A stretch of 64,000 bases of DNA, taken from contig NZ_NIRT01000012.1 of the NCBI RefSeq assembly GCF_003207795.1, positions 1-64,000 on the forward strand. The letters run 5' to 3'. The notes under the pieces were generated by a model. That model did not search any database and had not been told where the DNA came from. It saw nothing but the letters and a program-made list of their open reading frames with translations. The position numbers and the translations under genes were made by a program. Position 1 is the stretch's first letter. The number at the start of each line of letters is the position of its first letter. Below, piece after piece: positions 25,328-52,629 of the stretch. Source of the DNA: Komagataeibacter nataicola. GTDB lineage: Bacteria; Pseudomonadota; Alphaproteobacteria; Acetobacterales; Acetobacteraceae.

Positions 25328-26743
25328 ATGTCGAATCCCGGCGCGCATAATGCAAACGTCATCGAATCCCTTGACCAGATGGTCGCCCTGCTCGCAGCGG
25401 GCGCACGCCCGCGGGCGCAGTGGCGGATTGGCACGGAACATGAGAAATTCGGTTTTGTAAAACCCGATGCCGCAGGCCCGGGGCGTGCGGGATGGTCGGC
25501 GCCACCCTATGCCCCGCGCGGAATCGAGGCCCTGCTGCACGCCGTTTCAGCCGAAGGCGGCGGGACGCAGTGGCAGGACATTATTGATGAGGGCGCGCTG
25601 ATCGGCCTCAAGGGGCAGGAACAGGCGAAAGGCAGTTCCATTTCGCTCGAGCCGGGCGGGCAGTTCGAGCTTTCCGGCGCGCCGCTCGTCTCGCTGCATG
25701 ATACGGCAGCCGAGATGGCGCATCACTTCGAAGCCATCCGTCCGGCCTGCGCCGAACTCGGCCTGGGCTTCGCCCCGCTGGGCTTTCACCCCACGGCCAG
25801 GCGCTCTGACATTCCATGGATGCCCAAGAGCCGCTACGCCATCATGCGCGACTACATGCCGCGTGTGGGCACGCTGGGGCTGGATATGATGCTGCGCACC
25901 TGCACCGTGCAGGTGAACCTCGATTTCGGCTCGGAGGCCGACATGGCGCGCAAGATGCGTGTCTCGCTGGCGTTGCAGCCGGTGGCGACCGCGCTGTTCG
26001 CCAGCTCGCCGTTCTACGAAGGCCGCCCCAACGGTTTCCTGTCCAATCGCGCCCGTGTCTGGACCGATACCGACAATGCGCGCGCGGGCATGCCGCGCCA
26101 GTTCCTTGAAGATGGCTTCAGCTTCGCAGTCTATGTGCAGTGGCTGCTCGATGTGCCGATGTATTTCGTCACGCGCCACGGGCGCATGATTAATGTGGCG
26201 GGCCATTCCTTCCGCGACTGGCTTGACGGGCGCTGCCCACCGGGGCTGGAAGGCGAGCGCCCCACCATCGGCGATTTCGAGGACCACCTGACCACGGCCT
26301 TCCCCGATGTGCGCCTCAAGCAGTTCCTTGAAATGCGCGGCGCCGATGCGGGCTCGCCCGCCATGATGCTGGCCCAGTCAGCACTCTGGACCGGCCTGCT
26401 CTATGATGACGCCACCGTGCATGCCGCCGAAAAGCTGGTGCTCGAACATGGGTGGGACGATTATCTTGCCCTGCGCGCCGCCGTGCCGCGCCAGGGGCTG
26501 GATGCGCCGTGGGGGCAGGGCACGCTGCGCCCGCTCGCAGCCCGCATGATCGCCCTGGCCACCGATGGCCTGCGCGCCCGCGCCCTGCGTGATGGCAATG
26601 GGCACGACGAGACCCGTTATCTGGCGCCCCTGCATGAAATTGCAGCAGGCGGCCCCACGCAGGCCGAGGCCTTTCTTGCCGCCTATCATGGTCGCTGGCA
26701 GGGCGATGTAACCCATGTCTTTACCGAAGCGGCCGTGGTGTGA
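25328..26743 (+). CDS. gshA: Glutamate-cysteine ligase (plant-type)
   Basis: A 471-residue enzyme of the GCS2 class found in alphaproteobacteria and plants, catalysing ATP-dependent joining of glutamate and cysteine, the first step of glutathione synthesis. WRIGTEHEKFGFV carries the acidic metal-binding residues near the N-terminus, and GSSISLEPGGQFELSG, LRTCTVQVNLDFGSE and RHGRMINVAGHSF are typical. It follows rsmE. It is unrelated in sequence to the enterobacterial GshA type. Glutathione synthetase (gshB) is not in the window. Confidence 0.93.
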   Translation: MSNPGAHNANVIESLDQMVALLAAGARPRAQWRIGTEHEKFGFVKPDAAGPGRAGWSAPPYAPRGIEALLHAVSAEGGGTQWQDIIDEGALIGLKGQEQAKGSSISLEPGGQFELSGAPLVSLHDTAAEMAHHFEAIRPACAELGLGFAPLGFHPTARRSDIPWMPKSRYAIMRDYMPRVGTLGLDMMLRTCTVQVNLDFGSEADMARKMRVSLALQPVATALFASSPFYEGRPNGFLSNRARVWTDTDNARAGMPRQFLEDGFSFAVYVQWLLDVPMYFVTRHGRMINVAGHSFRDWLDGRCPPGLEGERPTIGDFEDHLTTAFPDVRLKQFLEMRGADAGSPAMMLAQSALWTGLLYDDATVHAAEKLVLEHGWDDYLALRAAVPRQGLDAPWGQGTLRPLAARMIALATDGLRARALRDGNGHDETRYLAPLHEIAAGGPTQAEAFLAAYHGRWQGDVTHVFTEAAVV

Positions 26744-26818
26744 GCCGCAGGCGGGGATATTTTACCAAGAAACGTAACCGAGAAGCATAATCATTTTCGA
26801 TCGTTTTACTTGGGTATT

Positions 26819-26853
26819 TTGATTGAGAATTATTTGTAACTTTACAATATTCT
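26819..26853 (+). promoter_or_regulatory. mbfA promoter with overlapping operator-like dyad
   Basis: TTGATT (26819-26824) and TACAAT (26843-26848) are 18 bases apart, a reasonable sigma-70 promoter. The -10 element lies inside the dyad TTGTAA-CT-TTACAA (26834-26847), flanked by AGAAT (26826-26830) and ATTCT (26849-26853). A repressor bound here would block the promoter. The dyad does not match the Irr-box consensus as I recall it, so the regulator is not assigned. Confidence 0.5.
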
Positions 26854-26862
26854 TGAGCTATT

Positions 26863-26904
26863 AAGAGAATTTATGCATAGACTGGGTAATGCGTAAATTC
26901 TCTT
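26863..26904 (+). promoter_or_regulatory. 11-bp inverted repeat enclosing the mbfA start codon
   Basis: AAGAGAATTTA (26863-26873) is perfectly complementary to TAAATTCTCTT (26894-26904). The 20-base loop between them contains the ATG at 26889-26891 and the weak ribosome site region. In mRNA this would place the start codon in the loop of a hairpin whose right arm is codons 2-6. It could be a second protein-binding dyad or an RNA control element. Confidence 0.55.
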
Positions 26905-27845
26905 CCCTGTCCGATCAGGAAATCCTCGCGCTTGCCATCTCCAACGAGGAGGAAGACGGGCGTATCTACTCCGATTTTGCCTACACCCTGCGCGAGAAAT
27001 ATCCCGACACGTCCAAGATCTTTACCGATATGTCGATGGAGGAGGATGAGCACCGCCGCGACCTGATCGACCTGTATGTCAGCCGTTTCGGGCCGCATAT
27101 TCCGCTGATCCGCAGGACTGATATTGCCGATTTCATGGTGCGCAAGCCCGCGTGGCAGGTGCAGACGCAGGGCATCGAGGCCGTGCGCGCCCATGCCCGG
27201 CAGATGGAAATGGATGCGGCGCGATTCTACCGTCAGGCCGCCCTGCGCACCACCGATGCCACGACCCGCCGGCTGCTTGGTGACCTCGCCCATGCCGAGG
27301 ACCAGCACGAGCAGGCCGCCAACGCCATTACCCTCGACCGCCTGCCCACCAGCAAGCGCGAAAGCGAGGATGAGGATGCGCGCCGCCGTTTCGTGCTCCA
27401 GATCATCCAGCCCGGCCTTGTGGGGCTGATGGATGGTTCGGTCTCGACCCTCGCGCCGGTCTTTGCCGCAGCCTTTGCCACGCATCAGCCATGGAACGCC
27501 TTTCTTGTCGGCATGGCGGCATCGGTGGGGGCGGGGATTTCCATGGGCTTTGCTGAGGCCCTGTCCGATGATGGCAAACTTTCGGGGCGGGGCGCGCCAC
27601 TGCTGCGCGGGCTGGTGTGCGGGCTCATGACCACGGCGGGCGGCATCGGGCATACCCTGCCGTTCCTGATCGATGATTTTTCGGCGGCCATGATTGCCGC
27701 CATCATCGTGGTGGTGATCGAACTGTTCGTCATCTCATGGATACGCTGGCGCTATCAGGACACGCCGTTTGGCTCGGCCATTGTGCAGATTGTCATTGGC
27801 GGGCTGCTGGTGTTCGTGGCCGGTGTGCTGATTGGCAGCTCGTAG
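26889..27845 (+). CDS. mbfA: Membrane-bound ferritin / iron exporter MbfA
   Basis: A 318-residue fusion of an erythrin/rubrerythrin-like ferritin domain and a VIT1-type transporter. The diiron-type helices carry [37 protein letters not shown] and [13 protein letters not shown]. The membrane half starts at about residue 163 with [19 protein letters not shown] and holds about five helices. In Bradyrhizobium and Agrobacterium MbfA exports iron from the cell and is controlled by the Irr regulator. It stands as a single gene with AT-rich control DNA in front. Confidence 0.92.
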
Positions 27846-51351: not shown

Positions 51352-52629
51352 CTAGCGCTGATCCGGGAGCAAACCGCCCAGAACCGTGCGGATTGCGGTG
51401 GCAAGGCGGCTGAGTTCGACTGGCGTAATGGTGAAAGCAGGCGTCAGGTAAACGATATTACGGAAGGGCCGTACCCATACCCCCTGTGCGATCAGGGCGG
51501 TCTTGAGCGCATTCATGTCACGTATGCGGTCAAGTTCCACCACGCCGATGGCCCCCATGACACGCACATCAACCACATGGGGCAGGGCGCGGCAGGGTTC
51601 GAGTTCGGTCCGCATCTGCGCTTCGATACGGGCCACCTGCTGCAGGCGGGGTTCGGTTGCAAACAGGTCGAGCGAGGCATTGGCGCAGGCGCATGCCATG
51701 GCATTGGCCATGAAGGTCGGCCCATGCATGAGCGCATGCAGCGGATCATCGGACAGGAAGGCCTCGAACACATGCCTGCGCGCCACCGTGGCCGCCAGCG
51801 CCATCGTGCCTCCGGTCAATGCCTTTGAAAGGGTTATGATGTCCGGCACGATGTTCGCCTGCTCGCAGGCGAACATCGTGCCGGTGCGGCCAAAGCCGGT
51901 AAAGATCTCATCAAGGATCAGCAGCACGCCATGGCGGTCGGCCAGGGTGCGCAGGTTGCGTAGCACCTGCGGCGTATGAAACAGCATGCCGCCCGCGCCC
52001 TGCACCAGCGGTTCGGTAATGATGGCGGCAATGCTGCCTGCGTGTTGTGCCAGCAGGGCATCAAGGGCTGCGGTGCTGGCGGCATCGACCGGCAGATCGG
52101 CAATGAAATGCTCGGGCAGCGCGCCGTTATACAGGCCGTGCATCCCTTCCTCCGGGTCGCACACGGCCATGGTGGCCATCGTGTCACCATGGTAGCCACC
52201 GCGGAAGGCCAGCAGCCTGGTTCGCCCCGTCTGGCCCTGGTTGAGCCAGTACTGGATGGCCATCTTCATCGCCACCTCGACCGCGACCGAGCCGGAATCC
52301 GTAAAAAATACCCGCTCCAGGTCACCGGGGAGCAGGCTAGCAAGGCGGCTGGCCAGCGTCAGGGCGGGTTCATTGACCAGGCCGCCAAACATGACATGCG
52401 GCATGCGCTCGAGCTGACCTGCCACCGCAGCGCGGATATGGGGATGGTTGTAGCCGTGGCAGGCGGTCCACCACGAGGCGATGCCATCAAGCAGTTCCGT
52501 GCCATCGGCCAGCGTGATGGTGCAGCCCTGCGTGCGCATGGCGGGGAGCGGGGGCAGGGCGGTCTGCATCTGCGCGTAAGGTAGCCAGACATGCTGCATG
52601 CCTCGCTCCAGCCATTCAGGTCCACACAT
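51352..52629 (-). CDS. bioA: Adenosylmethionine-8-amino-7-oxononanoate aminotransferase
   Basis: A PLP enzyme of 425 residues that turns KAPA into DAPA using SAM as amino donor. HVWLPYAQMQTALPP and SWWTACHGYNHPHI are BioA-specific; VFFTDSGSVAVEVAMKMA and ILDEIFTGFGRTGTMFACEQA are conserved, and the PLP lysine is in ITLSKALTGG. GGAG lies seven bases before the ATG at 52629. It is divergent from bioF with 70 bp between starts. A large perfect palindrome lies within the conserved FACEQANIVPD part. Confidence 0.95.
   Translation of the reverse strand: MCGPEWLERGMQHVWLPYAQMQTALPPLPAMRTQGCTITLADGTELLDGIASWWTACHGYNHPHIRAAVAGQLERMPHVMFGGLVNEPALTLASRLASLLPGDLERVFFTDSGSVAVEVAMKMAIQYWLNQGQTGRTRLLAFRGGYHGDTMATMAVCDPEEGMHGLYNGALPEHFIADLPVDAASTAALDALLAQHAGSIAAIITEPLVQGAGGMLFHTPQVLRNLRTLADRHGVLLILDEIFTGFGRTGTMFACEQANIVPDIITLSKALTGGTMALAATVARRHVFEAFLSDDPLHALMHGPTFMANAMACACANASLDLFATEPRLQQVARIEAQMRTELEPCRALPHVVDVRVMGAIGVVELDRIRDMNALKTALIAQGVWVRPFRNIVYLTPAFTITPVELSRLATAIRTVLGGLLPDQR
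51843..51884. repeat. 42-base perfect palindrome inside bioA
   Basis: CCGGCACGATGTTCGCCTG (51843-51861) is followed by CTCG and then by its exact reverse complement (51866-51884). Counting the C-G pair in the centre, 20 pairs flank a two-base middle. It encodes the conserved TGTMFACEQANIVP part of BioA, so the protein is normal. Confidence 0.97.

Follow-up and report, generated by a model that had tools for sequence, protein, structure and literature searches.

The mbfA locus

The window (the whole stretch of Komagataeibacter nataicola DNA that was analysed, 64,000 nucleotides long) contains two neighbouring genes on the same strand:

25328..26743, + strand: gshA, glutamate-cysteine ligase (PF04107, 272 bits), directly 5' of mbfA
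26889..27845, + strand: mbfA, iron exporter with a rubrerythrin (PF02915) and a VIT1 (PF01988) domain

A preliminary description, made from the sequence alone, had already named the second gene mbfA, and both its domains and its match to the MbfA model NF045676 (521.7 bits, cut-off 450) confirm this. All 19 genomes of the genus have mbfA, in each case with gshA upstream on the same strand, and no intrinsic terminator was predicted in the gshA-mbfA interval of the window. In several other genera (L031, L032, L037, L043, L044 and L059), a gshA-like frame ends 0-2 nucleotides before mbfA and there is no Fur box. Gene arrangements of this kind suggest that an old gshA-mbfA operon later gained a separate mbfA promoter, or the reverse. 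A search of plasmid proteins returned distant homologues only, and searches of the literature turned up no work on how mbfA is controlled in Acetobacteraceae.

Two inverted repeats at the start of mbfA

Two inverted repeats precede or overlap the start of mbfA. Both are real, yet, judged by their conservation, the two do not duplicate a single control site:

26834..26847, + strand: dyad 1 core, TTGTAA-CT-TTACAA, not conserved (pairing count across the genus)
26863..26878, + strand: left arm of the dyad 2 hairpin, reaching from the promoter spacer into the first bases of the -10 (16 pairs; covariation)
26889..26904, + strand: right arm of the dyad 2 hairpin, the first mbfA codons (changes are synonymous third positions that keep or create pairs)

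Dyad 1 had been described with AGAAT/ATTCT flanks and as covering the -10 box. The core is indeed present, but the flanks (AGAAT at 26826-26830, ATTCT at 26849-26853) are one base out of register, and while TACAAT within the dyad does score as a -10, the -10 favoured by comparison of genomes is a different hexamer. All six core pairs are formed in the seven closest species, but only one to five of them in the other 12 species of the genus; a Fur-type 15-bp box (26824-26838) that partly overlaps the dyad mostly persists where the dyad decays. The AGAAT/ATTCT arms common to both dyads, which had led to the proposal that one regulator binds to two stacked sites, hold together only in the window species and its six closest relatives. 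Neither this proposal nor dyad 1 as a regulator site was retained, as the core pairing is not conserved.

Dyad 2 has, exactly as described, two perfect 11-bp arms, AAGAGAATTTA (26863-26873) and TAAATTCTCTT (26894-26904), separated by a 20-nt loop. The repeat extends further inward, to 16 pairs (15 Watson-Crick and one G-U) around a loop of 10 nt, and the start codon (ATG 26889), previously placed in the loop, falls within this extended stem. Dinucleotide shuffles of the surrounding 200 bp have a best perfect arm of 6.05 on average, and an arm of 11 is reached in about one of 500 shuffles (p = 0.002). The entire 64-kb window has 13 inverted repeats of at least 10 bp with loops of up to 25 nt; at 51843-51884, two perfectly matched 20-bp arms (CCGGCACGATGTTCGCCTGC/GCAGGCGAACATCGTGCCGG) flank a loop of 2 nt.

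An Rfam search of positions 26500-27300 returned no match at E values up to 1, and a known RNA element at the mbfA start was therefore rejected. A small open reading frame (ATG CAT AGA CTG GGT AAT GCG TAA, 26873-26896) overlaps the mbfA start in 18 of the 19 genus loci; the frame (MHRLGNA) is probably incidental. The variation of its codons 5-6 shows no coding constraint, and L014 has lost the stop codon.

A Fur-type box at a fixed distance from the promoter

The mbfA upstream regions of the genus share three near-invariant blocks: GAGAAGCATAATCA near 26780, TGAKAATNATTTKTA at 26824-26838 and TTGAG-17-CATAGA right before the ATG. In the window, these correspond to the following features:

26780..26798, + strand: box A, second Fur-like site, GAGAAGCATAATCATTTTC (conserved in the genus, resembles the family box consensus; putative function)
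26824..26838, + strand: box B, candidate Fur-type 7-1-7 operator, TGAGAATTATTTGTA (same box at a fixed distance to the -35 across many genera)
26853..26858, + strand: predicted -35, TTGAGC (TTGAG in 19/19 genus loci; TTG(A) 29-31 bp after the box family-wide)
26876..26881, + strand: predicted -10, CATAGA, 17-bp spacer (CATAGA in 18/19 genus loci, CATAAA in L018)
26888..26889, + strand: predicted transcription start, on the A of the ATG or the base preceding it (from the distance between -35 and ATG)

The centre of box B lies 58 bp before the start codon. The genus form of this box is weak in two loci (L018 and L019), which have no good box B but retain box A. The core of box A is kept in 18 of the 19 genus loci, with a single change in L006; its centre is about 100 bp before the start codon, it is present as a single copy in the genome and the block is absent from the sister genus g73. 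Box A is a possible second operator or an older promoter (CATAAT).

Of 40 loci from other genera, many have the box in a G+C-rich form, TGCGAAGCATTCGCA, centred 58-60 bp ahead of the ATG. Part of this set was used to build a matrix, which was then applied to 60 further, held-out loci of the family: a box scoring 9 bits or more is present in 29 of these, where shuffled sequences predict 0.68. About half of the family loci have no box by matrix scoring. The sequence TTGA starts 29-31 bp after the start of the box in 26 of 30 box-bearing held-out loci, irrespective of whether the leader is short or long, and CATA-type hexamers occupy the same -10 position in other genera.

The distance between -35 and ATG is bimodal. 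Of the 48 box-bearing promoters, 33 fall into a short class (34-37 bp) and 15 into a long class (52-71 bp); the value of L019 was left out of the two classes, as its box is mis-assigned. Several leaders of the long class have purine-rich, Shine-Dalgarno-like stretches, for example GGGAGG. As the spacing between box and promoter is equal in both classes, it is operator and promoter that are phased, and not operator and start codon. Some of the genera with longer leaders (L049, L085, L101, L125 and L126) have a further conserved stretch, TCATTATTNCGANANCGTC, in the interval from the box to TTGATC, which might extend the operator.

The window belongs to the short class, with 36 bp between TTGAGC and ATG. 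A distance of 34-37 bp leaves no room for a leader, so the transcript would begin at or next to the ATG, and TTGAGC-17-CATAGA probably yields a leaderless mRNA. In Gluconobacter oxydans, a member of the same family, leaderless mRNAs with ATG starts and lax ttGnnn/nAtnnn promoters have been mapped (PMC5756330); the leaderless start of mbfA differs in that it is predicted from distances and is combined with a start-codon hairpin. A second hexamer, TAYAAT (26843-26848), is nearly conserved in the genus and may serve as the -10 for transcription that begins further upstream.

Fur is the best candidate regulator

The genome encodes four proteins with a FUR domain, two Fur-like and two Zur-like. The two Fur-like proteins are closest to the solved structure of Magnetospirillum Fur, 4ray. 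The genus has a pair of Fur-like paralogues (L060, G000:C20:31825, and L061, G000:C27:21565), in contrast to the single match listed for most family genomes; L060 is preceded by a Fur box of its own, and none is obvious for L061. A pattern search, the only means by which genome-wide Fur sites were located, found the canonical Fur pattern at 11 sites and the reversed control pattern at none; among them are sites next to exbB, a fur gene, an ECF sigma factor gene and a gene for P19-type iron transport. The 7-1-7 box of mbfA resembles these sites, well in its 5' half and weakly in its 3' half.

In Rhodobacter and Bradyrhizobium, mbfA is a direct target of repression by Irr (PMC3413700, PMC4902296), and the same could be proposed here. 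The preliminary description had remarked that the repeats do not look like an Irr box, and this agrees with the absence of Irr: by curated cut-offs the genome has none (NF045677/NF045678 reach 42.9-47.5 bits, cut-offs 170 and 150), and none of 200 family genomes has a protein over the cut-off of the IrrA model, with control genomes that contained no known Irr carrier. The position of the box also differs from that of an Irr repressor site, which covers the promoter or the transcript start: the box lies upstream of the promoter, 29 bp before the -35 and with its centre 58 bp before the ATG, next to which the start is predicted. We give control of mbfA by Irr next to no chance in this organism. 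With Irr missing, a Fur homologue in 192 of the 200 family genomes and Fur sites in the genome, Fur is the best candidate for the regulator.

A position at -58 and a fixed spacing to a well-placed -35 are what an activator requires and are not needed for repression; from this, we infer that iron-loaded Fur activates mbfA from -58, and the fixed spacing supports activation without proving it. Direct activation by Fe-Fur is known (reviewed in PMC7762939) and includes the sdh and nuo operons of Caulobacter (PMC6120978). These share with mbfA an alphaproteobacterial Fur box upstream of the promoter and a gene that is wanted at high iron; here, in contrast, the target is an iron exporter, the spacing of 29-31 bp is strict across genera and the activation is predicted from sequence. 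The Irr-repressed mbfA genes of Rhodobacter sphaeroides and Bradyrhizobium japonicum (PMC3413700, PMC4902296) resemble this one in the exporter gene itself, in a regulator of the Fur superfamily and in the expectation of more exporter at high iron, but the 5' end of R. sphaeroides mbfA lies inside the Irr box, whereas here there is no Irr and a constant interval separates the box from the -35 downstream of it.

Dyad 2 covaries like a paired RNA

Dyad 2 is kept in all 19 members of the genus: in the 19-row alignment, its 16 pairs are formed in 95.4% of pair cells, compared to 30-58% for slid controls. Three pairs (6-45, 9-42 and 15-36) change on both sides and yet still pair, and A/G changes opposite U remain wobble-paired. 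When the changes are placed on a FastTree tree of mbfA, the right arm has five, each of them at a synonymous third position and each preserving or creating a pair; for four of these, the left arm changed in compensation along the same branch. Wobble changes are not expected to be tolerated by a DNA operator, which favours pairing at the RNA level, and dyad 2 looks like an RNA structure rather than an operator. In folds of positions -60 to +30, the AUG is predicted to be unpaired with a probability of 0.03 in the window and of 0.00-0.08 across all 19 genus loci; in such longer RNAs, the hairpin would thus sequester the start.

Among 175 loci, helices of at least 11 pairs that sit flush with the ATG are confined to the 19 genus members and L033; the other 155 loci have at most 8 pairs. 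L033 belongs to another genus and its hairpin, 17 pairs of unrelated sequence, lies downstream of the apparent end of purH. The sister genera g43 and g73 have kept the gshA-mbfA order and have no hairpin.

A model for mbfA expression and its alternatives

The reading that we favour, while giving it somewhat less than an even chance, combines a Fur-activated leaderless promoter with a hairpin that insulates mbfA translation from gshA read-through. At high iron, a Fur dimer on the 7-1-7 box 26824-26838 (centre -58) would contact RNA polymerase from a fixed distance and activate transcription from TTGAGC-17-CATAGA, probably assisted by box A near -100, and the mRNA would start at or adjoining the ATG. 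The output would equal that of Irr, export when iron is plentiful, with the opposite sign, as Irr on the promoter represses at low iron. The left arm of dyad 2 (26863-26878) overlaps the predicted -10 (26876-26881); with the start at its predicted position, leaderless mRNA cannot form the hairpin and only RNA started further upstream can. In RNA arriving from upstream, chiefly by read-through from gshA, a hairpin of 13-16 bp would close the AUG, while in the leaderless mRNA without a left arm the AUG would stay open. Read-through from gshA is assumed here from the gene order and from the lack of a predicted terminator.

The likeliest role of dyad 2 is therefore, in our view, that of a translational insulator, separating mbfA translation from gshA transcription, although the two sister genera with gshA-mbfA and no hairpin indicate that such insulation is not generally needed. 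The preliminary description had also considered that dyad 2 acts in RNA to hide the start codon, and had named a transcript start downstream of the left arm as a finding that would speak against its proposal. The covariation supports the former, though in the different setting of read-through RNA; the latter is predicted to hold for the main promoter and does not abolish the hairpin but confines it to the longer RNA.

Several other explanations of dyad 2 were weighed. Promoter and Fur operator could be as proposed and the dyad without function, a product of templated (quasipalindrome) mutation, with one arm serving as the template for the other when the DNA is replicated. This is a serious rival, above all for L033, whose right arm has unusual codons (MRAFN), as if copied, and for the clade of the window: the seven species nearest to it lost all mismatches in one step (the changes in left columns 5, 6 and 7 and in right column 45 share a single branch). 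The absence of the hairpin from sister genera would fit too. Wobble pairs and an A-C mismatch, however, persist across many species, and correction of one arm by the other would hence have to be inefficient; moreover, pairs 6-45, 9-42 and 15-36 switch identity while paired and every A/G change opposite U keeps a wobble pair. On balance, we think a functionless dyad unlikely, with a chance that is still to be reckoned with. A site for some repressor that covers -10 and start codon at the DNA level has a much smaller chance and was rejected: two helical turns (21 bp) separate the centres of the arms over the -10, but wobble-type changes and identity-switching pairs fit RNA better, and the core pattern of dyad 2 occurs just once in the genome.

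Alternatively, the main start could lie upstream, at about 26855, served by TACAAT (26843-26848); dyad 2 would then be a leader hairpin that regulates mbfA translation directly, with Fur as a repressor. The promoter-like TTGATT-18-TACAAT (9 of 12 matches), the near-conservation of TAYAAT in the genus, the predicted stability of the leader hairpin (-24.1 kcal/mol, z -3.75) and the covarying pairs are all compatible with this. The TTGATT of this promoter, however, is not conserved in relatives, TTGAG-17-CATAGA and the distance of 34-37 bp are shared with genera that have neither TAYAAT nor hairpin, and repression of an iron exporter by Fe-Fur has the wrong sign. We consider an upstream main start improbable.

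The favoured arrangement, Fur activation with an insulating hairpin, has precedents in its second part. In the IS10 transposase gene and in the e and soc genes of phage T4, the start is buried in a stem of the long read-through RNA, and the gene's promoter lies inside this stem and gives rise to an open RNA. mbfA differs from these in being a chromosomal metal-export gene, in its predicted leaderless start and in the pairing of the AUG itself, and not of the Shine-Dalgarno sequence alone. With a promoter in the hairpin arm, only the gene's own iron-activated leaderless transcript would be translatable and every outside transcript would be silenced; this reading as a whole, with an independent origin of the design in at least two lineages of Acetobacteraceae, is possible, if rather doubtful. 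If the model is true, a lineage without Irr would have kept iron export at high iron by swapping regulator, site and sign, from Irr on the promoter to Fur at -58, and mbfA would be a clean natural case of a start-codon hairpin with an internal promoter that separates a gene from its neighbour's transcription.
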